In this document: positions 7,583-26,417 of the stretch, in pieces | Layout of the letters: each line of letters opens with the position of its first letter | How positions within the stretch are numbered: position 1 is the first letter of the stretch | Source: a virus | Reading direction: 5' to 3' (one strand) | IMG/VR virus record: IMGVR_UViG_3300048442_000453 | Span: 1-27,912 of that record | DNA length: 27,912 bases | Notes under the pieces: model-generated | Seen by the model: the letters and a program-made list of their open reading frames with translations, nothing else | Database searches by the model: none | What the model was told of the DNA's origin: nothing | Position numbers and translations under genes: made by a program

Positions 7583-10448
7583 CGTATCAAAAACAGTAGA
7601 AATTATTTTCAGCGGGATAAACCGCGCATCCGGTGCGCTAGGGGATATTGCTGACGATATTGATGCTGTTGGCAATAAAGCGTCCGGGGCGTTCGGGAGT
7701 ATTGCCCAAGGCGCTCAGTCGGTCGAGGCTATCGCCGATCCCATAGCGAATGCAGCCCAGTCACTTGTAAAATTAGAAGCCGCCGCGCTAGCAACTGGTG
7801 CCGCGTTTGTCACGTTTGCGACCGTCCAAGCTGGACAGTTCGCCACATCGTTTGCAGAGATTGCCACGCTAATCGGTGAAGACCCAGCGAATCTCGAGCA
7901 GTTCAAAGATGACATTGCCGCCTATGCTGCCACATCGACCCAATCCCTAGACACAATTACCGGCGCAGTTTACTCCGCTATATCTGCCGGTATTGATTAC
8001 GAGGACTCATTACAGGCGCTTAGTGTCGCCGAAAAGCTGTCGGTTGCTGGTAAGGCAGAGCTTCAGGGTACATTGGTCACGTTGGTATCGACGCTAAACG
8101 CTTATGGGTTAAGCACCGAAAATGCAGCCCTGTTTTCTGATCTGCTGTTTACGACTGTAAAAGAGGGACAGACAACACTCCCCGAGCTTCAGGCATCGCT
8201 GGCTAATGTAACCGCCATTGCTGCTACAGCTAATGTGCCGTTTGAAGAAATCACCGCTGCGATTGCTACGCTAACCGCCGGTGGTACACAAACATCAGCT
8301 GCTATTACTGGAATCACCGCAACGATTAGCTCACTGATTAAGCCGAGCAAAGAAGCGCAGGAAGAAGCCGAGAAGCTTGGTATTAACTTTACCGCAGCAG
8401 GTTTAAGTTCGCAGGGACTTGCAAGCATCCTGGGCGAAGTTGCCGCTAAGACCGGAGGCAGCACAGAGCAGATTGCAAAGCTGTTCGGAGGGGTCGAGGC
8501 GTTAAAGGCGGTCCTACCTTTGACCGGAAGCCTTGCGGATACATTTGCAGACAAGATTGATGCGATGGGCAACGCCGCAGGCTCTACCGAGCAAGCCTAT
8601 AACATCATGGCCGATAACCTAGACCTGCAGTTTCAAAAGCTCAGTAACAGCTTCCGATCAATATTGCTTGCTACGGGTGATCCGCTGATTGACGAGTTCG
8701 CCGGTATAGCAGATGCGATAAGCACAATATTTGTGTCGGTCGGTGAAAGCATAAGCGAGGGCGCACTCGAGTCGCTAGTTGCCTACACCGAAGCTAACCT
8801 ACAAGACCTAGAGGCAGTATTTAACGCCATTGCTGCAAACCTGCCCGAAGCGCTAGACAGTGCAGACCTGTCCGGGTTTACCGAGGGCATTGACGCGGTA
8901 AAGGATGCCATTGGCGATTTGTTTGAGGACGTTGACCTCACTACCCCGGAGGGATTGCGTAGCGTCATCGAAGGGCTTGGCACCGCGTTTCAAGCACTGG
9001 GAGAATTTACCGGCGGCTTTATTAGCAGCTTCGAAGCGCTGGTCGACTTTATCGTTGAAAACAAAGACACCATCGGGGGCGTTGGCGCAGACTTTGCAGA
9101 GAACGCTGGTGCGCTGGGCGGGTTCGCCACGCAAGCAAGCGCTGCTGCTGGTGCGCTAGGGGGCCTAGCCGGGTCGCTAGAGATACTTATTGACCTACTC
9201 ATTGTAAGGACTGGGGCTAACCTAGCTTTAGGCCTAGGAAGGTCTGCGGCGGCTTTAGGGGGTGCCTCTGGATTGGTTGCGCTGCTTGGCCCTGCGGGTT
9301 TAGTCGCCGCGGCGGGTGGAGCGGGTTACGCAATCGGGTCGCTGATTGAAGAAAACACCGGGCTGGGCAAGTCAATAGGCGGCTGGCTTTATGATGTTAT
9401 CAATGGGAAGAATGAGCTACAGGGCTTATCAAGCACAGCAATTCAGGCACAGGCCCCCATATCCGGGCTGAAAGGCTCTTTTAATGCAAGCGCCGATGGT
9501 GCTGGTGATCTAGCAGACCGCTTTTTAGAGCTTACCGGGGTCGCTGATTTGTTCCCGGATGCGGTGAACGATGGTAACCGAGCGCTTTACGGATTTCAGG
9601 AAGCCGCAGAAATTGCAGCGGATGAGGCAAAGTACCTCGAGCAAGTTGAACTCGCGATAATCGAAACAAAAGAAAAAGACAAAGCACTGCAAGAAAAGCG
9701 CAACGAAATCGCAAACGAGTTCAGCGGTACGCTCCGGGGTCTAGTCCCGATCTACGATGACCTCACCGGGCGCATTACAGGGTTCGATAAATCCCAAAGA
9801 CTTGCGAATGAGTCCGTAGCATCTGGCGCAGAGGCCATACTTGATGCCGAGGGCAACATAATTGGTTACACGGATGGTATACAGGGCATTGGCACCGCCT
9901 TTAAAGAAGTAGACCCCGCCCTTACCGATGCCGAGCGCAAGCTTCAGTTAAACGCTCAAACAGCGCAGGAAGCAGCGGAGCAGACCGAAGAACTCAAGCT
10001 GCAGCTGTTGCAATTAGCCAGTGACGAGCGCATTCGGCAGATCGAAGTTAATGCTGACATTAATGTGGCCGAGATTGAGGCGCAGGCACAGCGAGTCGAG
10101 GCGGCGTTTGGCTCAATCGCTGAAACCTTCAGCAGCACCGGGGATGCACTTAGCGGGTTATTCGCCGCCCTCGATGGGGCAACGGGTGGCTTGCGAATTG
10201 AAATTGAAGATCAAATACGCAGAGAAAATGACAGGCGCGATGAGGCCCTAGAGCTTCAGCGGGAATTGACCGAGGCAGAGATTGAGCTAATAAACGCGAA
10301 AGCCAATGCCTTGCAGGATGGTAACCCGGCTATTGAAATTGATGGCACAGGGCTATCGCCTCACCTCGAGGCATTTATGTTTGAAGTGCTGGAGGCTGTT
10401 CAGGTTAGAGTTAATGCGCAAGGTCGCGAGGTATTACTAGGACTATGA
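7575..10448 (+). CDS. Tail tape measure protein
   Basis: 957 residues. ATG at 7575 is chosen over an in-frame ATG at 7545 because AGGGG lies seven bases before it and because the frameshifted chaperone ends here. Residues about 60-350 match the minor-tail/tape measure family (PhageMin_Tail type): VAEKLSVAGKAELQG, LSTLNAYGLSTENA, TTVKEGQTTLPELQ, FGGVEALKAVLPLTG, then LDLQFQKLSNSFRSILLATGDPL. A glycine/alanine-rich hydrophobic block at about 525-600 and charged coiled coils at about 690-730 and 790-910 follow. It sets tail length and travels in the tail lumen; by the common rule of about 0.15 nm per residue the tail would be roughly 140 nm (inference). The next ATG overlaps its TGA. Confidence 0.92.
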   Translation: MANVSKTVEIIFSGINRASGALGDIADDIDAVGNKASGAFGSIAQGAQSVEAIADPIANAAQSLVKLEAAALATGAAFVTFATVQAGQFATSFAEIATLIGEDPANLEQFKDDIAAYAATSTQSLDTITGAVYSAISAGIDYEDSLQALSVAEKLSVAGKAELQGTLVTLVSTLNAYGLSTENAALFSDLLFTTVKEGQTTLPELQASLANVTAIAATANVPFEEITAAIATLTAGGTQTSAAITGITATISSLIKPSKEAQEEAEKLGINFTAAGLSSQGLASILGEVAAKTGGSTEQIAKLFGGVEALKAVLPLTGSLADTFADKIDAMGNAAGSTEQAYNIMADNLDLQFQKLSNSFRSILLATGDPLIDEFAGIADAISTIFVSVGESISEGALESLVAYTEANLQDLEAVFNAIAANLPEALDSADLSGFTEGIDAVKDAIGDLFEDVDLTTPEGLRSVIEGLGTAFQALGEFTGGFISSFEALVDFIVENKDTIGGVGADFAENAGALGGFATQASAAAGALGGLAGSLEILIDLLIVRTGANLALGLGRSAAALGGASGLVALLGPAGLVAAAGGAGYAIGSLIEENTGLGKSIGGWLYDVINGKNELQGLSSTAIQAQAPISGLKGSFNASADGAGDLADRFLELTGVADLFPDAVNDGNRALYGFQEAAEIAADEAKYLEQVELAIIETKEKDKALQEKRNEIANEFSGTLRGLVPIYDDLTGRITGFDKSQRLANESVASGAEAILDAEGNIIGYTDGIQGIGTAFKEVDPALTDAERKLQLNAQTAQEAAEQTEELKLQLLQLASDERIRQIEVNADINVAEIEAQAQRVEAAFGSIAETFSSTGDALSGLFAALDGATGGLRIEIEDQIRRENDRRDEALELQRELTEAEIELINAKANALQDGNPAIEIDGTGLSPHLEAFMFEVLEAVQVRVNAQGREVLLGL

Positions 10449-17983: not shown

Positions 17984-18260
17984 CATACAGCTAAGGCGCG
18001 ACCCGGCTAGTACGTGGACAACCGTTGATCCGATACTCGCAGAGGGCGAGATTGGCTACGAGTTAGACACCGGCAAGTTAAAGGTGGGCAACGGGACTGA
18101 TAATTGGTCAGACCTACCTTATCGCATATCTACAATTCACAACGATTTGACTGGTCGGGGGACAGCTGATGCCCACCCGATCAACGCTATTACCAACCTA
18201 CAATCAAGCCTTGATGACCGGCTTACCTTTACTGATACTATTGACGGAGGCGCATTCTAA
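17973..18260 (+). CDS. Short Mtd_N protein with DGG end
   Basis: 95 residues starting at GTG 17973 inside the end of the previous gene. Residues 1-48 are a clear Mtd_N match (IQLRRDPASTWTTVDPILAE, YELDTGKLKVGNGTDNW). Then NDLTGRGTADAHPINAITNL, a standard fibre segment, and a short end TIDGGAF. With only a head domain and a stub it looks like a minimal fibre adaptor. TAATG overlap with the next start. Confidence 0.65.
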   Translation: MARNIQLRRDPASTWTTVDPILAEGEIGYELDTGKLKVGNGTDNWSDLPYRISTIHNDLTGRGTADAHPINAITNLQSSLDDRLTFTDTIDGGAF

Positions 18261-19099
18261 TGTCGCAAACAATTACAATTAAGCGAAGTACAACGACGAG
18301 TGTCCCAAGCTCACTAGAAAATGGTGAGTTGGCATATTCACAGTCAAGCAAAAAGTTATTCGTTGGCCGTCCGGGTGGCGGTACGGGTGACGTTGATGCA
18401 ATCGGCGGTAAGTTTTACACCGACAAGATTGATAACAACAGCGCTAACTGGGACGCAGGTTACAATGACAAGATCAACTCAGCATCATTTAACACGGCTG
18501 ATGGTGTTCTTACCCTTACGCAGCAGGACGGTGGTACAGTAACCGCCGACCTCGATGGGCGGTATCTCACAAGCTTTACCGAGAGTGACACCCTGGACGA
18601 TGTAACTGGTCGGGGCGCAACAACCTCAAACAGCATTACCGTTGGCGGTCTATCTGTTACCGGTAACCTCACCGTGTCCGGAACGACTACCTCGGTTAAC
18701 ACTGAAGAAGTCAACATCGCCGATAACTTTGTGCTGCTGAACAGTAACGTAACCGGCGCACCTTCAGAAAATGCTGGCATCGAGATTGAGCGCGGCACCG
18801 GAACCAATGTACAGATTCGGTATAACGAGACTTCTGACAAGTGGGAGCTTACTAATGATGGGTCTAGCTTTGACGATATTGCCACAGGCGATTCAGTTCG
18901 CACAGATAGCGAAATCATTGGGCTGGTTACTGCTGGAACCCAGAGCAATATTTCTGTTACTGATGGGACTACTGGGGTCGATTTTGCAGTCCCGACTGCA
19001 ACAGCGTCTGCGTTGGGTGTAGCTTCATTTGACACCCCGGACTTTGCTGTAACTGCTGGTGCTGTTAGCATCAACCGCGTTGACGGTGGTACGTTCTAA
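18260..19099 (+). CDS. Fibre protein, cyanophage-structural-type repeats
   Basis: 279 residues. The N-terminus (ITIKRSTTTSVPSSLENGEL, SQSSKKLFVGRPGG) is related to the Mtd_N-type head. The middle has LTQQDGGTVTADLDGRYL and TGNLTVSGTTTSV, then NFVLLNSNVTGAPSENAGI, IEIERGTGTNVQIRYNE and DKWELTNDGSSF, a module I know from many marine-phage virion proteins. It ends with INRVDGGTF. Likely trimeric beta-strand fibre. It starts on the previous stop. Confidence 0.7.
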   Translation: MSQTITIKRSTTTSVPSSLENGELAYSQSSKKLFVGRPGGGTGDVDAIGGKFYTDKIDNNSANWDAGYNDKINSASFNTADGVLTLTQQDGGTVTADLDGRYLTSFTESDTLDDVTGRGATTSNSITVGGLSVTGNLTVSGTTTSVNTEEVNIADNFVLLNSNVTGAPSENAGIEIERGTGTNVQIRYNETSDKWELTNDGSSFDDIATGDSVRTDSEIIGLVTAGTQSNISVTDGTTGVDFAVPTATASALGVASFDTPDFAVTAGAVSINRVDGGTF

Positions 19100-20752: not shown

Positions 20753-20794
20753 AGTGCTGTTGGTGAGTGCTTTTGCTCATCCGTGGGAGGACTA

Positions 20795-21091
20795 ATGGCA
20801 GCATCTACGATTATTCAAATCAAGACTTTAACGACAGAGGCCGATGTTGAATTACACGGCTGTCCTATCGTTGACACCGATGACGAAATTGCTTTTGTCC
20901 GGGTACCGCTATCAGAAATTGATTGCTATTACTCGGTCAATGGCGGCGTGTACCCAGACGAAGCATGGGGGTCGCGCATACTGGTGGAGGAAATAGACAT
21001 AGAAGTCCACCGGTGCAAGTGGGAAGGTCATGCAGTATTAAATGACGAAGAAGTGGCCGAAGAATTATTACTTTGGTCAAACGAATCTTAA
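20795..21091 (+). CDS. Unknown 98-residue protein
   Basis: ATG at 20795 is chosen over an in-frame GTG at 20783 because that GTG is part of the CGTGGGAGG leader that supplies the ribosome binding site. The product is acidic, with ADVELHGCPIVDTDDEI and a C-terminal DEEVAEELLLWSNES. No family recognised. First gene of the early/middle region, directly downstream of the candidate promoter and the parS-like site. Confidence 0.7.
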   Translation: MAASTIIQIKTLTTEADVELHGCPIVDTDDEIAFVRVPLSEIDCYYSVNGGVYPDEAWGSRILVEEIDIEVHRCKWEGHAVLNDEEVAEELLLWSNES

Positions 21092-21108
21092 ACGTGGGAG
21101 AAAAAACT

Positions 21109-21387
21109 ATGCAAGACCCTATTGAAGCCCTTAACAAGCTATCTGCTTTGGAAGGTGGGCCAAAAACTAAGCTGGTGCGAGTGCCAGTTGCCCCGGTGAT
21201 TGATTTTGGCGTTGCCCTAGATCAATACATGGCGTACACGCAAAAAGAGTTCGAGTGTGGCTGGTGTGATGCGGAATCTGGCAACCCACCTTGTCAGGTT
21301 AGCGAGGCATACAATGCTGGTTACTACCAGTCCTACGCGTGTCAAGCGTGTCACGAAGGACAAACGGAGGGTTACCCCAATGACTGA
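21109..21387 (+). CDS. Unknown protein with cysteine cluster
   Basis: 92 residues; ATG 21109 preferred over an in-frame TTG at 21073 because the conserved leader TTAAACGTGGGAGA sits directly before it. The C-terminal third carries CGWC, a further Cys in NPPC, then CQAC, with a His two residues on (CHEG in full CQACHEG), a possible zinc-binding knuckle. Overlaps the next gene by eight bases. Function unknown; position before a single-strand annealing protein suggests a DNA-metabolism helper but no evidence beyond that. Confidence 0.65.
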   Translation: MQDPIEALNKLSALEGGPKTKLVRVPVAPVIDFGVALDQYMAYTQKEFECGWCDAESGNPPCQVSEAYNAGYYQSYACQACHEGQTEGYPND

Positions 21388-22111
21388 TCAATTACCTTCA
21401 GTGTATGAAAGGCTCAGCGAAATAAACGTCAACGACCATAAACAGAAAAAAGGCAACTTTGATTACCTCAGCTGGACGTGGGCTATTGATGCTGTGAAAC
21501 GCAGCGGCCTAGATTTCAGTTACGAGTTGCTTGACGATCAGGTGTACAACGATGGGAGCATGGAAGTGCGCTGCTCCGTCACCCTCGATTCTATACGGCA
21601 TGTTATGTGGCTTGCTGTAACTGATCACAATAACAGGGCAATCAAAAATCCAGACGCCGCGGCGATTAACAAGGCAAGAATGCGCTGCTTAGTAAAGGCG
21701 ATTGCGATTCATGGCCTCGGGTTCTATATCTACGCCGGTGAGGATTTGCCAGCCACCACTCTCGAAGTGTACGAAGAGTTTATGGCTGACATTGAGAGTA
21801 ACGAGTACAAGGTCGCGCTGAAGTATGTTGCGATGACAGAGGCCGAGCAGGTTGAGCTATCGAAGTCTGCCCCAGCGGGGCATAAGGTCGAGCTAAAGGC
21901 AAAGCTGCGGGAGCTGTCCGGTAAGGTTCACGAGGTCGCCGATAGTTGTGCGGCTACCCTTGGTGAGCAGCTAGAGGCGAATGACACTCACGGCGTTATT
22001 GAGTCGGTGAGCGAGCTTGTCGATATTGAGAAAAAACTGGTGTGGGCAAGAATCACCCCGGAGCAAAAAAGCGCAATCACAGAAATATTTAAGGAGCAAA
22101 AAAATGCCTAA
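21380..22111 (+). CDS. Single-strand annealing protein, DUF1071 (Sak-like)
   Basis: 243 residues. ATG 21380 has CGGAGGG upstream and is favoured over an upstream ATG at 21257 that would overlap the previous gene widely. Residues about 20-35 (KKGNFDYLSWTWAIDAVKR) and 92-125 (AIKNPDAAAINKARMRCLVK, AIHGLGFYIYAGEDLP) are the DUF1071 signature, a Rad52-like superfamily of phage recombinases that pair complementary single strands. The C-terminal 100 residues are a helical extension (ELKAKLRELSGKVHEVADSC). It is followed by a likely SSB, and NinB and NinG lie further right, so this is the phage recombination set. Confidence 0.85.
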   Translation: MTDQLPSVYERLSEINVNDHKQKKGNFDYLSWTWAIDAVKRSGLDFSYELLDDQVYNDGSMEVRCSVTLDSIRHVMWLAVTDHNNRAIKNPDAAAINKARMRCLVKAIAIHGLGFYIYAGEDLPATTLEVYEEFMADIESNEYKVALKYVAMTEAEQVELSKSAPAGHKVELKAKLRELSGKVHEVADSCAATLGEQLEANDTHGVIESVSELVDIEKKLVWARITPEQKSAITEIFKEQKNA

Positions 22112-22376
22112 GATTAAAGACGCAAAAGCTGTTGTACGCACTTACACCTGCCCCAAGACTAACAAGGAAAAAAACGTCTGGATGAAAGTTGGCAGTCTGT
22201 TTGAGAGTGACAAAGGACTTTCACTGCAACTTGATTTAATGCCGGTTGGCCCTGAGTTCACTGGCTGGATAAAGTTTTTTGACCCCTACGAGGACAGAGA
22301 GCAGAATTATGCGGAAGGCATGAAAGTGGTTAAGTCTCAGCTTGAGCCAATCGCTGAGGACGATATTCCGTTTTAA
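22104..22376 (+). CDS. SSB-like protein with acidic tail
   Basis: 90 residues; ATG 22104 with AAGGAG at 22091-22096. Beta-rich (AVVRTYTCPKTNKEKNVWMK, LSLQLDLMPVGPEFTGWIKF), compatible with a small OB fold, and ending AEDDIPF, the same acidic-Pro-Phe type of C-terminus by which bacterial SSBs recruit partner proteins. Overlaps the annealing protein by eight bases; the pairing of annealing protein plus SSB is common. Family membership is inferred from tail, size and context. Confidence 0.65.
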   Translation: MPKIKDAKAVVRTYTCPKTNKEKNVWMKVGSLFESDKGLSLQLDLMPVGPEFTGWIKFFDPYEDREQNYAEGMKVVKSQLEPIAEDDIPF

Positions 22377-22381
22377 AAAAG

Positions 22382-22402
22382 GGGGCGGTCATGAATCGCC
22401 CC
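22382..22402 (-). terminator. Hairpin, possible minus-strand terminator
   Basis: GGGGCG (22382-22387) pairs with CGCCCC (22397-22402). On the + strand no T-run follows, but on the minus strand the hairpin is followed by a T-tract (complement of the A-run at 22374-22380). It could stop antisense transcription toward the SSB gene or simply be an mRNA hairpin. Confidence 0.3.
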
Positions 22403-22442
22403 AAACTCTAGGAACCGCAATCAACTTAACAAGGGATGTAGC

Positions 22443-22658
22443 ATGGAGTCAAATCTAACGGATGCCGGTAAGTGCATCAGAATCGCGCAAGAAATGCGCT
22501 CGATAAATACCAAAGAGCTCTGCGAAAAGATGGGAGTGCAGAGACAGCAGATGCATCGCTGGAGGCTATCCAAAAACCTAAAGCTGCATATTGTTCAGCA
22601 GTTCGCTGGTTTGTTTGGTATGTCCCTGGACGAATTTTGCAAGCTAGACAAAATGTAA
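22443..22658 (+). CDS. Cro-like XRE-family DNA-binding protein
   Basis: 71 residues with a single helix-turn-helix: IRIAQEMRSINTKELCEKMG, VQRQQMHRWRL, then LHIVQQFAGLFGMSLDEF, the usual XRE/Cro five-helix layout. Arg/Gln/His-rich recognition helix (RQQMHRWR). Binding site AAGGGATG. It is followed by a strong terminator and then by a 270-base hairpin-rich gap, so it probably regulates promoters in this area. No matching CI-like repressor is visible. Confidence 0.75.
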   Translation: MESNLTDAGKCIRIAQEMRSINTKELCEKMGVQRQQMHRWRLSKNLKLHIVQQFAGLFGMSLDEFCKLDKM

Positions 22659-22660
22659 AA

Positions 22661-22698
22661 AAAACCCCCGAGGCCGTGGGAGGTCGCCCGGGGGTTTT
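22661..22698 (+). terminator. Strong intrinsic terminator
   Basis: AAACCCCCG (22662-22670) pairs with CGGGGGTTT (22689-22697), extended by an inner GGC/GCC pair, and ends in TTTT. The A-run upstream makes it bidirectional. Unusually, its loop contains CGTGGGAGG (22675-22683), the same motif that leads several early genes. Confidence 0.8.
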
Positions 22699-22718
22699 AA
22701 ACTAACTCGCGTTAGTTT
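22699..22718. repeat. Perfect inverted repeat
   Basis: AAACTAAC (22699-22706) and GTTAGTTT (22711-22718) around TCGC. It could be an operator for the adjacent Cro-like protein (symmetrical half-sites), or a second terminator-like hairpin, although no T-run beyond the stem follows. Confidence 0.5.
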
Positions 22719-22970
22719 ATGGTGTGGATTGTGGAAGCCACAGCCCAATTATAAGCCAGCAGTGCTTATCGTTGCAAGCTGTGACGTTGTTGGGCGCTAG
22801 GCCGGGGAAGATAAAACCCCGGAGTCGACGATACTTGTGAGTGAGCGCGCCTTTCCCGGCCGAGAGCAGGTCGGGAGAATAGACTAGAAGATTCGATACA
22901 ACATTTATCCGCTCGTCATTTCTATTTAAATTTTATGCGCGTAAGCGTAAGGTTAAACGTGGGAGATAAT
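22719..22970. other. Gene-free, hairpin-rich interval
   Basis: No plausible reading frame on either strand. Hairpins: TGTGG/CCACA near 22731-22743; CCGGGG (22802-22807) with CCCCGG (22817-22822); and a 7-pair stem CCCGGCC/GGTCGGG around 22856-22876. Then an AT-rich stretch (22902-22936) that could hold a promoter or melt easily. It ends in the leader TTAAACGTGGGAGA. Candidates: untranslated structured RNA, regulatory region or replication origin. No tRNA or riboswitch recognised. Confidence 0.5.
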
Positions 22971-23336
22971 ATGACTAAATTTGAACTAATCCTAAATGAC
23001 AAAAGCTTGTATCTAGTCACCGACGATAAGATACAGAAGTACAAAGAGCTTTACCCTGCTGTCGATGTGGAGCAAGAGCTTCGCAGTATGATTGGCTGGT
23101 GTGACAGTAATCCAAAAAACCGCAAGACTAGAAATGGTGTCGCCAGTTTCATCACCCGCTGGCTGAAGAAAGCCCAAGACCAAGGTGGCAGTGGATATAA
23201 GCGCCCGGTGTCGAGGGGCCTGCGCGACCTGTCTAATGAGCAAATGCTTACCGACGTATCGTGGGTGCCAAAGGAAAAAAGAGCCGCAGCGCGTGCGCAT
23301 ATGCTGAAAAAGTACGGGGTGGTTTATGACGGATAG
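22971..23336 (+). CDS. Replication-associated protein
   Basis: 121 residues; ATG 22971 directly after the GTGGGAG leader is preferred over an in-frame ATG at 22935. Residues about 24-62 (LYPAVDVEQELRSMIGWCDS, NRKTRNGVASFITRWLKKAQ) match the C-terminal motif of many phage and prophage replication proteins (YPxxDVEaEL..m..W...NP..rKT..G...Fi..WL), here without the usual N-terminal primosomal or HTH domain. The C-terminus is basic (KEKRAAARAHMLKKYG). It overlaps the NinB-like gene by 11 bases. Probably a small replication/helicase-loading factor, inferred from the motif. Confidence 0.65.
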   Translation: MTKFELILNDKSLYLVTDDKIQKYKELYPAVDVEQELRSMIGWCDSNPKNRKTRNGVASFITRWLKKAQDQGGSGYKRPVSRGLRDLSNEQMLTDVSWVPKEKRAAARAHMLKKYGVVYDG

Positions 23337-23739
23337 TGGTGAACAGTGGGTGGTAAACAATCCCGATACCCTCAAAAACTTTTTACGCGAGGCTGAGAGG
23401 CAATACGAGCAGCATGGTTATGTTGTCTTTAAGTGGCAGTCAGGTAATCAGCGAACCAGAAAGCAGAACAGTGCAATGTGGCTATGGTTATCCCAACTTG
23501 CAACAGAGCTTAATGACGCCGGGTATGATATGCGCAAAACCTTAAAGGACGAGGTTGATATACCTTGGACTAAAAGCAATGCCAAGACCCATATCTGGGA
23601 CCCAGTGCAGCGAGTACTGCTTGGAAAAGATAGCTCGCAACAGCTTGAAAAGACTGAAGTAAACGAAGTGCAAGAGGTCATTGCGCGTCACATCGCGAAA
23701 TCCACAGGAGTTACAGTACCGTTTCCTAACAAGGATTAA
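23326..23739 (+). CDS. ninB: NinB-like recombination protein
   Basis: 137 residues. The pattern RTRKQNSAMWLWLSQLATEL, NDAGYDMRKTLK, DIPWTKSNAKTHIWDPVQRV and TGVTVPFPNKD at the end matches lambda NinB (Orf): KQN.AM, LN.AG.DM, IPWT...K..LW.PVQ, TGV..PFP. NinB binds single-strand DNA and assists phage recombination, replacing RecFOR functions. Neighbours are a replication protein upstream and NinG further down, a nin-type gene arrangement. Confidence 0.85.
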   Translation: MTDSGEQWVVNNPDTLKNFLREAERQYEQHGYVVFKWQSGNQRTRKQNSAMWLWLSQLATELNDAGYDMRKTLKDEVDIPWTKSNAKTHIWDPVQRVLLGKDSSQQLEKTEVNEVQEVIARHIAKSTGVTVPFPNKD

Positions 23740-23748
23740 GGACGGTGC

Positions 23749-24906
23749 GTGAACATTTTAGATTTCGCTAACACAGATCGGGAGCGGCTTATTCTGCAAT
23801 TGAAGGCGCAGGGTATCACCGCCCCCGAGGTCGCTTTGAAAGCTGGCATCACTGAGCGCAATGTATTTAGAACCATAGCCAGAGTTAAGGCGCGAGCCGC
23901 CGCTAGGGGTTACGCCCCCGACTCAGATTGGATTCACACAGTACCCAAGGGCCAGCAGGTCGCTGGCGTTTCTAGTTTATACCGAGATGGGCAAGACCAG
24001 CCGGTTTTGCAGTGGGTCAAATCAAAAACCGACCAAGAAGCCGCTTACGAGTTAATCCTGGACAGTTTAGAAAATGCCCATGAAAACTATAAGCCGTTTA
24101 AGCCCAGCAAATCCAAGGGCAAGAAAAAGGAAAACCTCGCCTCCCTGTTAACCATTACCGACTTTCACTTAGGCATGTATGCCTACGAAGCAGAGACAGG
24201 TGACAACTGGGACTCAGAGATTGCGGAGCGAGTATTCCTAGACTCAATTGCTGCAATGATCGAGGCAGCGCCGCCCAGTAAAGTTGGGATACTTTGCCAG
24301 CTTGGAGATTTCCTGCACTGGGATGGGATACTCAGCGCATCGACGCCAATGTCTGGTCACGCCCTAGACGCAGACACCCGGTATAGCAAGCTGGTTGAGC
24401 TTTGCATGTATGTAATGACCGAAGCAGTTCGGATGATGCTAGAAAAGTTCGAGCAGGTTGTTGTGATTAGTGCAGAGGGTAACCACGACATATCGGGGAG
24501 TATATGGCTGCGGAAACACATTAAGCATATCTACAGCAAAGACAAGCGGGTGGAGGTGATCGACAACGATTACCCTTATTACGCGTATTTGCATGGCGAG
24601 ATTATGCTGGGATTCCACCACGGCCATAAAATGAAATTGGCAAGCCTTCACAAGCTTTTTGCCAGTGAGCCACGATTCCGGTCGATGTGGGGCAAGTCGG
24701 TCGCCGCTTATATCCACACCGGGCATTATCACCATGAGCGCGTTATCGAAGACGGTGGCGCAATTGCAGAGCAGCACCCTACATTGTCAGGTCGTGATGC
24801 GTATGCTGCCCGAGGGGGCTATGTAAGCCTCCGGGGAGCCAAGCTAATTACCTATGACAAGCATGATGGGGAGATAAGCCGCATAACCATAAGGCCAGAA
24901 ACATGA
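23749..24906 (+). CDS. Metallophosphoesterase with N-terminal helix-turn-helix
   Basis: 385 residues starting at GTG 23749 after AAGGA. The N-terminal 60 residues resemble a homeodomain-like HTH (LKAQGITAPEVALKAGITER, NVFRTIARVKA). The catalytic domain carries all calcineurin-like motifs: D138-F-H140, G186-D187-F-L-H190, G244-N245-H246-D247, H290-H291-G-H293 and G325-H326-Y-H328. Such proteins bind two metal ions and cut phosphodiesters; the HTH suggests DNA as target. It lies between NinB and NinG; lambda's nin region also holds a phosphatase (NinI), but the HTH fusion is different. Substrate not predictable. Confidence 0.8.
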   Translation: MNILDFANTDRERLILQLKAQGITAPEVALKAGITERNVFRTIARVKARAAARGYAPDSDWIHTVPKGQQVAGVSSLYRDGQDQPVLQWVKSKTDQEAAYELILDSLENAHENYKPFKPSKSKGKKKENLASLLTITDFHLGMYAYEAETGDNWDSEIAERVFLDSIAAMIEAAPPSKVGILCQLGDFLHWDGILSASTPMSGHALDADTRYSKLVELCMYVMTEAVRMMLEKFEQVVVISAEGNHDISGSIWLRKHIKHIYSKDKRVEVIDNDYPYYAYLHGEIMLGFHHGHKMKLASLHKLFASEPRFRSMWGKSVAAYIHTGHYHHERVIEDGGAIAEQHPTLSGRDAYAARGGYVSLRGAKLITYDKHDGEISRITIRPET

Positions 24907-25160
24907 GCGTACTAATCGGATGCCCTTTACCTCAAAAGGAGGGCCACGTTGTTTTTTTATCAACTGACATTGGTGGATGCATTACCAACAAGTCAAACCC
25001 CAAGTATACTGACGTCTATACAGACACGTTCCCATCCGGGGTAACTGTCGCGGTAAATTGCGAAAAGTTTTACAACCTGTGGCAATGTGCGGTTAAAATT
25101 GATATGGACGATGACGAAGAAGAAAAACAAACAACAGTCATACGAGGGGTTTGGCATTAA
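24903..25160 (+). CDS. Unknown 85-residue protein
   Basis: ATG overlaps the phosphoesterase TGA (ATGA) and its TAA overlaps the NinG ATG (TAATG), so it is a middle gene of one operon. The product begins MSVLIGCPLPQKEG, contains SGVTVAVNCEKFYNLWQCAV and an acidic stretch (DMDDDEEE) near the end. Three cysteines but no clear metal site. Function unknown. Confidence 0.6.
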   Translation: MSVLIGCPLPQKEGHVVFLSTDIGGCITNKSNPKYTDVYTDTFPSGVTVAVNCEKFYNLWQCAVKIDMDDDEEEKQTTVIRGVWH

Positions 25161-25573
25161 TGGCTAGAAAGGCAACCACGGCAGGTTTAAAGAAGAAGGC
25201 ACACGAACTGCTTCAGCGTTTGGTGCGAATGAAAGCCGCAGATGATTGCGGTATAGTTCGGTGCGTAAGCTGTGGAAAGCTGGATCATTACAAAGCCATG
25301 GACGGTGGGCATTTTATCAGCCGCACCTACACCTACCATTCGCTCCGGGAGGAAAACATACACCCGCAGTGTAAGCGCTGTAACCGGTTCTTTGGATTGT
25401 GTCACGATGACTACCGGGTTTACATGGTCGACATGTATGGCGCGGATTATGTGGAATGGCTAAGCACCTCTAAGCGAAATATCTGCAAGCGCAGCAGGAT
25501 GGATTACGAGGATATGATAGAAGATTTCAAAACCCGCCTAAAAGAACAAGAAAATAGATTAGCGGGTACATAA
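25160..25573 (+). CDS. ninG: NinG-like protein (HNH-type zinc fold)
   Basis: 137 residues, ATG 25160 coupled to the previous TAA; an in-frame TTG at 25151 is less likely. The centre shows C35-V-S-C38, DGGH51-FISR, N66-I-H68-P-Q-C71-K-R-C74-N, the pattern of lambda NinG (Rap): a zinc-binding HNH-like fold that resolves branched DNA such as Holliday junctions and D-loops. It is shorter than lambda Rap (about 200 residues), lacking part of the N-terminus, but all the central residues are present. It ends the recombination operon; a promoter follows. Confidence 0.85.
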   Translation: MARKATTAGLKKKAHELLQRLVRMKAADDCGIVRCVSCGKLDHYKAMDGGHFISRTYTYHSLREENIHPQCKRCNRFFGLCHDDYRVYMVDMYGADYVEWLSTSKRNICKRSRMDYEDMIEDFKTRLKEQENRLAGT

Positions 25574-25602
25574 AAAAATTTACCTATTTGTATGCAAAAG
25601 TG

Positions 25603-25630
25603 TTGTCAGCGTCAGGAAAGCATGTATATT
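25603..25630 (+). promoter_or_regulatory. Sigma70-like promoter
   Basis: TTGTCA (25603-25608), 16-base spacer, TATATT (25625-25630). The string CAAAAGTGTTG that surrounds the -35 (25595-25605) recurs at the promoter at 26349. Drives the small genes from 25664. Confidence 0.75.
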
Positions 25631-25663
25631 CGTTGCATGGTTTGAGTCCGGGAGGGGACAATC

Positions 25664-25852
25664 ATGCAAAAGCGTAAGTGGACAATCACATTCAAGCAAG
25701 AAGATACAAGCGGTCGTTTAGTCAAGCAGCAGATTCAGGTCGACAGCCTTTCAGAATTTCGCGCAATGGCAGAAAAAGATATGTTGACCATCGTCGCCGT
25801 TCGCGATCCGGGTGGTAAGTTACACCGCACACAGATCGGTCGTTTATCCTAA
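25664..25852 (+). CDS. Unknown 62-residue basic protein
   Basis: ATG 25664 after GGGAGGGGACAATC. The product starts MQKRKWTITFKQEDTSGRLV and has a second half with VDSLSEFRAMAEKDML, predicted beta-beta-alpha. First gene behind a good promoter. No known family; small early proteins of this type often act on host functions, which is only a suggestion. Confidence 0.65.
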   Translation: MQKRKWTITFKQEDTSGRLVKQQIQVDSLSEFRAMAEKDMLTIVAVRDPGGKLHRTQIGRLS

Positions 25853-25867
25853 ACCGTGGGAGGTTTT

Positions 25868-26110
25868 ATGGTTCACCTAGTAAAGCGTTACGTTACCGAA
25901 AGTGAAATGAGCTACGCAGTCGATGCCCTCATGCCAACAATGGAAATAAACCATTGCAGTCGGCGTGAGCTAGCAGGTCTTGCGCTAGAGCATTTCGCGG
26001 ACGAGCTTGGCGTGATTGCCAACGTGAGTGCCGCAAGGGTAGTCGCGAGTCGCGTTCTGGCAGCATGGGAAGGCGTAAAGATGCAAACTAAGCGGGAGGT
26101 GGGAGCATGA
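25868..26110 (+). CDS. Unknown 80-residue helical protein
   Basis: ATG 25868 with leader CGTGGGAGG; an in-frame GTG at 25856 lies inside that leader and is rejected. The product is mostly helical (HLVKRYVTESEMSYAVDALM, CSRRELAGLALEHFADELGV). Its stop overlaps the next ATG (ATGA). Function unknown. Confidence 0.65.
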   Translation: MVHLVKRYVTESEMSYAVDALMPTMEINHCSRRELAGLALEHFADELGVIANVSAARVVASRVLAAWEGVKMQTKREVGA

Positions 26111-26340
26111 GTGCACTTGCTAAGTTAAAGGCCCAGGTTGCGGCGATTGGCGGCGAGATTGACTGGGACAGCAGTAACGTAAGCCGAAAAGACAAGCTCT
26201 TATTTGTCGACGCCCCGGATGGGTACATTTGGGATTGGTCGGAGTCGGAGTGCCTTACGGTTTGCTGGTTCGATGGTAAGGCCGAAGAATTTTACAAGGA
26301 AGCACTCGAGCTTATTAGCTACGGGGTAAAGGAATACTAA
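26107..26340 (+). CDS. Unknown 77-residue acidic protein
   Basis: ATG 26107 coupled to the previous TGA and preceded by GGTGGGAG. It has LAKLKAQVAAIGGEIDW at the start and a Trp/Asp-rich centre (YIWDWSESE, VCWFDGKAEEFYKEALELI). No family recognised. A second promoter follows directly. Confidence 0.6.
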   Translation: MSALAKLKAQVAAIGGEIDWDSSNVSRKDKLLFVDAPDGYIWDWSESECLTVCWFDGKAEEFYKEALELISYGVKEY

Positions 26341-26348
26341 CAAAAGTG

Positions 26349-26376
26349 TTGACCCGGTATCGCAAGCCGGTAAATT
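26349..26376 (+). promoter_or_regulatory. Sigma70-like promoter
   Basis: TTGACC (26349-26354), 16-base spacer, TAAATT (26371-26376), with the string CAAAAGTGTTG (26341-26351) identical to the one at 25595. Serves the gene at 26418. Confidence 0.65.
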
Positions 26377-26417
26377 TGAAATCATTGCAGTATGTTCTGC
26401 TAAGTGGGAGAAAAAAA

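Follow-up and report, generated by a model that had tools for sequence, protein, structure and literature searches.

A repeated early-gene leader in a virus fragment and the predicted antisense small RNA that may read it

Introduction

Why should one short sequence stand before several early genes of the same phage, and extend beyond what the ribosome pairs with? The question arises in IMG/VR virus record IMGVR_UViG_3300048442_000453, a 27,912-base virus fragment (the window, meaning the whole stretch analysed) in which CGTGGGAG or a close variant lies just upstream of a set of start codons. Every gene considered here is encoded on the plus strand, and no near DNA relative of the window was found among named phages or phage records. 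We propose that CGTGGGAG is probably where a small RNA encoded by the phage binds. This RNA, placed like the OOP RNA of lambda and carrying an anti-Shine-Dalgarno (anti-SD) loop, would repress several early genes in trans.

Results

An earlier note on this DNA had placed the motif before six starts, and we recovered it at every one: exact copies of CGTGGGAG at 20782, 21093, 22958 and 25855, and the variants GGTGGGAG at 26098 and AGTGGGAG at 26403, with start codons downstream at 20795, 21109, 22971, 25868, 26107 and 26418. The 14-base TTAAACGTGGGAGA is identical at 21088-21101 and 22953-22966, as the note had said. A fifth exact CGTGGGAG, overlooked there, lies at 22675 and has no gene start after it. 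Across the whole window GTGGGAG occurs eight times on the plus strand and never on the minus strand, and it is found before 6 of the 19 early starts but before none of the 27 late ones (Fisher p=0.003), which agrees with the note's claim that the motif belongs to early and not late genes. Part of the reason for its absence from late starts is that late genes mostly lack GGGAG altogether (present at just 1 of 27).

Conservation beyond the Shine-Dalgarno (SD) site, also claimed earlier, is real by two measures. GT precedes 6 of the 10 GGGAG cores in SD position (p=2e-6; 4e-5 after allowing for 16 dinucleotides), and in 3000 simulations of the flanks with SD cores retained, six starts shared some 7-mer 14 times, four shared some 8-mer 35 times and two shared some 14-mer 3 times. 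Taken alone, this modest conservation is significant, not overwhelming. A shared mRNA fold that would include the motif was rejected, as the folds differ from one leader to another and are mostly no better than those of shuffled sequences. The GTG inside the four exact leaders (20783, 21094, 22959 and 25856) shares its reading frame with the ATG 12 or 15 nt further on and can mislead automatic gene callers into a false GTG start; we rejected it as the true start because no SD lies upstream of it.

What, then, is the copy that precedes no gene? This sole exact CGTGGGAG away from a start lies in the loop of a strong hairpin between genes E and F, which we take to be an intrinsic terminator because eight T follow it on the minus strand. 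A candidate promoter lies 50-80 nt upstream on the same strand, and terminator and promoter together delimit a predicted small RNA:

22656..22741, minus strand (read 22741 to 22656): predicted anti-SD small RNA of ~86 nt, from promoter, terminator, fold and relatives
22748..22777, minus strand: putative small RNA promoter, TTGCAA-18-TATAAT, matching the consensus at 10 of 12 positions, tied for best in the region
22661..22698, minus strand: intrinsic terminator from sequence, a hairpin with U-run (A-run on the plus strand)
22672..22689, minus strand: loop region GGGCGACCUCCCACGGCC, complement of the leaders; the plus-strand CGTGGGAG copy is at 22675-22682
22698..22719, minus strand: first hairpin, a 9-bp inverted repeat TAAACTAAC/GTTAGTTTA whose loop lacks an anti-SD
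22443..22658, plus strand: gene E, Cro/CI-type helix-turn-helix (HTH) protein (Pfam HTH_26), just upstream of the small RNA's terminator
22971..23336, plus strand: gene F, replication-initiation-like protein (PHROG 1032, weak)

The predicted 86-nt RNA folds far better than shuffles (z=-5.65). One loop exposes CCUCCCACGG, complementary to the leaders over 7-11 nt, and the other is CGCG; the 3' end, at 22656, overlaps gene E at its stop codon at most. A simple promoter scan gave no overall excess, but TATAAT recurs in relatives, as described below. The leaders that match the loop number seven, one of which, that of gene P, was not among the earlier six:

20781..20790, plus strand: gene A leader, CCGTGGGAGG, start 20795, 10 nt complementary to the loop
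21088..21101, plus strand: gene B leader, CGTGGGAG, start 21109, 8 nt complementary to the loop
22953..22966, plus strand: gene F leader, CGTGGGAG, start 22971, 8 nt complementary to the loop
25854..25864, plus strand: gene L leader, CCGTGGGAGGT, start 25868, 11 nt complementary to the loop
26094..26105, plus strand: gene M leader, GGGAGGTGGGAG, start 26107, 7 nt complementary to the loop
26403..26410, plus strand: gene N leader, AGTGGGAG, start 26418, 7 nt complementary to the loop
26904..26911, plus strand: gene P leader, TGGGAGGT, start 26916, 8 nt complementary to the loop

Computed duplexes between the loop and leaders A, B, F, L, N and P range from -15.8 to -25.0 kcal/mol, whereas pairing of the same leaders with 16S rRNA is weaker, at -7.3 to -11.4 kcal/mol (leader L, -25.0 versus -11.4; leader A, -21.9 versus -10.2). 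For leader M the two are near equal (-17.1 versus -15.3 kcal/mol).

Is such a unit found in other phages? We collected about 250 related loci, 80 through exonuclease H, 30 through gene N and the others through F and a structural gene. Relatives with exonuclease H have a gap, at a distance of 1 to 4.3 kb upstream of that gene, which carries a minus-strand unit made of TATAAT, then 40-100 nt with CCUCC, CUCCC or similar, then a terminator and U-run. Of 20 relatives, 13 have TATAAT on the minus strand and 1 has it on the plus strand, against 1.1 expected. The terminator's U-run is kept on the minus strand and not on the plus strand, even though the plus strand carries every gene. The corresponding RNAs of loci L035 and L082 have fold z values of about -4.8 and two CCUCC loops each. 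Terminator loops across the collected loci hold CCTCC in 20 cases, CTCTC in 2 and CACCC in 1, and the anti-SD parts vary (CCUCC and AUCCCC in L044, CUCCCC in L013, CACCCCUUUC in L075, CUCCC and CCCC in L099). The relatives' loops differ from that of the window, and their leaders differ too.

The difference in leaders is marked. In homologues of A, F, K and N the leaders are different and keep the SD core alone, sometimes as TGGGAG, and among 2175 gene starts in unselected related loci CGT precedes none of the 104 GGGAG SD sites. Conservation of CGTGGGAG in relatives is accordingly rejected, and on this comparison of sequences the CGT flank is private to the window phage. The earlier note had held that conservation of the GGAG core alone would count against its reading, and core-only conservation is what we find; it is also what a private loop/leader code predicts. 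Among 87 loci of at least 12 kb, three (the window, L112 and L174) have an 8-mer common to starts beyond the SD model at p<=0.02. In L112 five genes (9983, 10883, 12741, 13357 and 13818) are preceded by a repeated leader that is much longer, AATCTTATAGGG(G)GCAACAAAYTATG, and the L112 terminator at 8880 has the loop TTACAACCTCCTATCGT, a partial complement of that leader. L174 has an operator-like palindrome, TAACTAACAGTTAGTTA, directly before many starts on both strands (for example 350 and 3344 on plus; 11207, 9196, 8800, 6553 and 5056 on minus).

If loops and leaders form a code, each RNA should fit its own phage best. For 21 phages we scored the longest complement between RNA and leader, removed leaders overlapping the RNA, centred rows and columns and permuted the assignment of RNAs. 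The RNAs complement the leaders of the phage they come from better than those of other phages (z=5.2, p=5e-5), and do so without the window (z=4.5) and with one phage per group (z=4.65). The RNA's own sense gave -0.7 and its reversed sequence 1.1. In the hardest control, which used the phage's own segments round SD-like cores elsewhere, 120 draws had a mean of 1.3, a standard deviation of 1.3 and a maximum of 5.0, and none reached the real value of 5.14. Matches to own leaders include AAAGGGG in four L075 leaders and the L075 loop, CTTAGGAGAG in L046, and CAGGGAGA both before gene N and in the loop of L099.

Several features of the region stand apart from the small RNA. Between it and gene F, at 22790-22925 on the plus strand, lies a second conserved element resembling a structured RNA, with homologues in seven loci (L035 9033-9170, L082 376-512, L059 733-870, L081 8768-8905, L031 1761-1898, L075 3412-3549 and L099 2428-2560), compensatory stems CCGGGG/CCCCGG, CCAAGG/CCUUGG and CUAGGG/CCCUAG, and a near-invariant CGAGAGC; it could be a leader RNA or part of an origin. 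Neither this element nor the small RNA matched a known family in Rfam. Other early genes include G (NinB-like) and J (NinG). The sequence CAAAAGTGTTG(T/A)C occurs twice, at 25594-25610 and 26342-26358, as the -35 part of promoter-like sites upstream of K and N. Several late tail-fibre-like genes end in DGG(A/T)x (FDGGAA, IDGGAF and VDGGTF; at 1140-1154, 18240-18260 and 19085-19099), and these gene ends repeat GACGGAGG near the next starts. A pattern search for TAAACGTGGGAG..ATG in viral contigs returned unrelated contigs among the matches listed and is not used as evidence.

Discussion

How might a small RNA and a shared leader act together? We suggest that an RNA of ~86 nt, encoded between gene E (HTH) and gene F (replication), would run leftward from 22741 to a terminator whose loop presents CCUCCCACGG. 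That loop would pair with the SD and its flank (7-11 bp) before A, B, F, L, M, N and P and compete with the ribosome, jointly lowering translation of these early genes. Selection for pairing would keep the CGT flank constant within the phage, and loop and leaders would drift together between phages. The sequence itself shows the leaders, the antisense loop, the minus-strand promoter and terminator, the conservation of the unit and the better fit of RNAs to own leaders; the production of the RNA, its pairing, the repression and the timing of its action are what we infer.

The earlier note had offered three readings of the motif: a translational operator, a binding site for an RNA-binding regulator, or a mark of gene cassettes that spread with their leader. 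The operator is supported and the protein is not. The regulator indicated is an RNA, because in the same phage a hairpin loop of the predicted minus-strand RNA is complementary to the motif and because loops and leaders vary together across related phages; a phage RNA-binding protein was sought among the early proteins, and no such family was found. Cassette spread we rejected: leaders differ at other loci where A, F, K and N have homologues, no relatives of B, L and M were found, and a prophage search gave one spurious match.

Some of our results weigh against a trans-acting small RNA. For the window alone, randomising the loop flanks with the core kept gives p values of 0.002-0.055, depending on core and statistic, and because this is marginal the weight rests on the cross-phage test. 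There, shared composition explains part of the own-leader fit, though not most of it, since SD-matched own segments average z 1.3 and once reach 5.0; own matches are weak in L082, L081, L043, L047, L006 and L013, and gene calls in the relatives are simple open-reading-frame calls. Leaders M and N match the loop over only 7 nt, and the terminator could serve just to stop antisense transcription.

The simplest rival account is that the motif is only a strong SD, GGGAG(G), whose flank recurs through drift, local duplication or a preference of the host, and that the copy at 22675 and the cross-phage fit reflect chance or composition. GGGAG does pair with the 16S end, and this account would accommodate the core-only homologues of A, F, K and N, the marginal window-only randomisation and the partial fit of own SD-matched segments. 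We nevertheless think it unlikely: GT precedes six of ten GGGAG cores though the G and T there are unpaired with 16S, the extra CGTGGGAG copy sits in a terminator loop, the fit over 21 phages is strong while its sense and reversed controls are null, and the minus-strand promoter and terminator are conserved. That conservation also bears on a second account, in which read-through mRNA from E would show GGGAGG in hairpin loops as a plus-strand decoy, titrating a CsrA/RsmA-like protein or ribosomes that bind the same leaders. Plus-strand loops are indeed SD-like in the window, L035, L082, L099 and others, yet the U-runs and TATAAT belong to the minus strand, several plus-strand loops lack GGA (AAAGGGGTGA in L075, for example) and no RNA-binding protein was found in the window; we regard a decoy as very improbable. 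We give equally little credence to a minus-strand RNA that would act only in cis on the E-F mRNA, as OOP does in lambda (PMC12197685), with the leader match incidental. Its position and direction are those of OOP between cII and O, but it overlaps E at most at the stop codon, seven leaders elsewhere match its loop, and the fit test left out leaders overlapping the RNA.

The trans-acting small RNA that we favour has partial counterparts in known systems. Like lambda OOP, it is a short leftward RNA with promoter and terminator between HTH and replication genes of a rightward operon, and the order E, minus-strand RNA, F, NinB-like G and NinG J parallels cII, OOP, O ... NinB ... NinG. Lambda OOP covers the end of cII in antisense (PMC12197685), whereas the window RNA has no such relation to the 3' part of E, the cII-like gene, and OOP has no repeated match to lambda leaders (the best non-overlapping one is 8 nt, at NinI). 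The alpha-r14/NfeR1 RNAs (RF02344) present an anti-SD CCUCC in unpaired hairpin loops and have many predicted mRNA targets (PMC10746234, PMC3927594). The window RNA also presents its anti-SD in an unpaired hairpin loop, but it scores 20.6 bits against an RF02344 threshold of 58.8, has one anti-SD loop that is not CCUCCUCCC where each alpha-r14 hairpin holds CCUCCUCCC unpaired, and would target phage genes with a loop flank that varies between phages.

The third parallel, an independent one that speaks for the proposal, comes from mycobacteriophages. Start-associated sequences (SAS) of clusters K and EF are repeated motifs at the ribosome binding site, longer than the SD, on one strand and before non-structural genes only (PMC3203893, PMC7302621); their role was called unknown in 2011 (PMC3203893) and again in 2024 (PMC11373665). 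The window motif likewise sits at the ribosome binding site, is conserved beyond 16S pairing (six GTGGGAG starts; corrected GT p=4e-5) and is restricted to non-structural genes in one orientation (0 of 27 late starts; none on the minus strand). In four K1 phages, according to Pope et al. (PMC3203893), just one SAS is reversed and lies away from genes; we located it at 58,682 in Adephagia (L259) and 58,634 in Angelica (L261). Genes 92 and 93 (Adephagia numbering) are separated by a gap that contains a long hairpin (-33.7 kcal/mol), and the reverse SAS proves to be its loop, CCUCCUAUCC, which is unpaired throughout. These phages too have one antisense copy, in a hairpin loop. We found the hairpin region in 130 Mycobacterium phage records. 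Across nine divergent phages the stem has been preserved through two fully compensatory and several one-sided changes, and only DarthP departs from the otherwise constant loop. According to published RNA-seq, late transcription starts in this gap, and a natural if unproven reading is that the leader of the late transcript would shut off early SAS genes. The two systems differ in that SAS are 13 bp long (GGGATAGGAGCCC or GGGAAAGGACCCC) with at least 10 copies, against 7-8 bp and 6-7 copies in the window; CGTGGGAG fails the 13-bp consensus and shows no sequence kinship, and the antisense hairpin of K1 phages belongs to the coding strand and lies in the late-start region. Judged by sequence, the window system is outside SAS, alpha-r14 and OOP, yet would work like a combination of them.

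Could phage start leaders generally be one half of a two-part code? In such a code the loop of a structured RNA would complement the leader and block the ribosome sites of a gene set; it would have arisen independently here and in mycobacteriophages (there as a late-start hairpin for early-gene shut-off), with loop and leaders changing together in each lineage. We put this forward tentatively, as possible rather than probable. Against its generality, the corresponding gaps of TM4, Pixie, Keshu and Marshawn have no antisense loop, though TM4 carries 10 SAS and Pixie 18; some K2/K3 phages have the leader without the loop; and a matching leader change in DarthP was rejected, its loop being CCCUCCUUCCCC and its SAS unchanged.

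The antisense loop offers a concrete and cheap test of the role of SAS. If the proposal is true, many phage genes would be coordinated by one short RNA and a shared leader, with no protein, and the matching of loops to leaders would make regulons readable directly from phage genomes.

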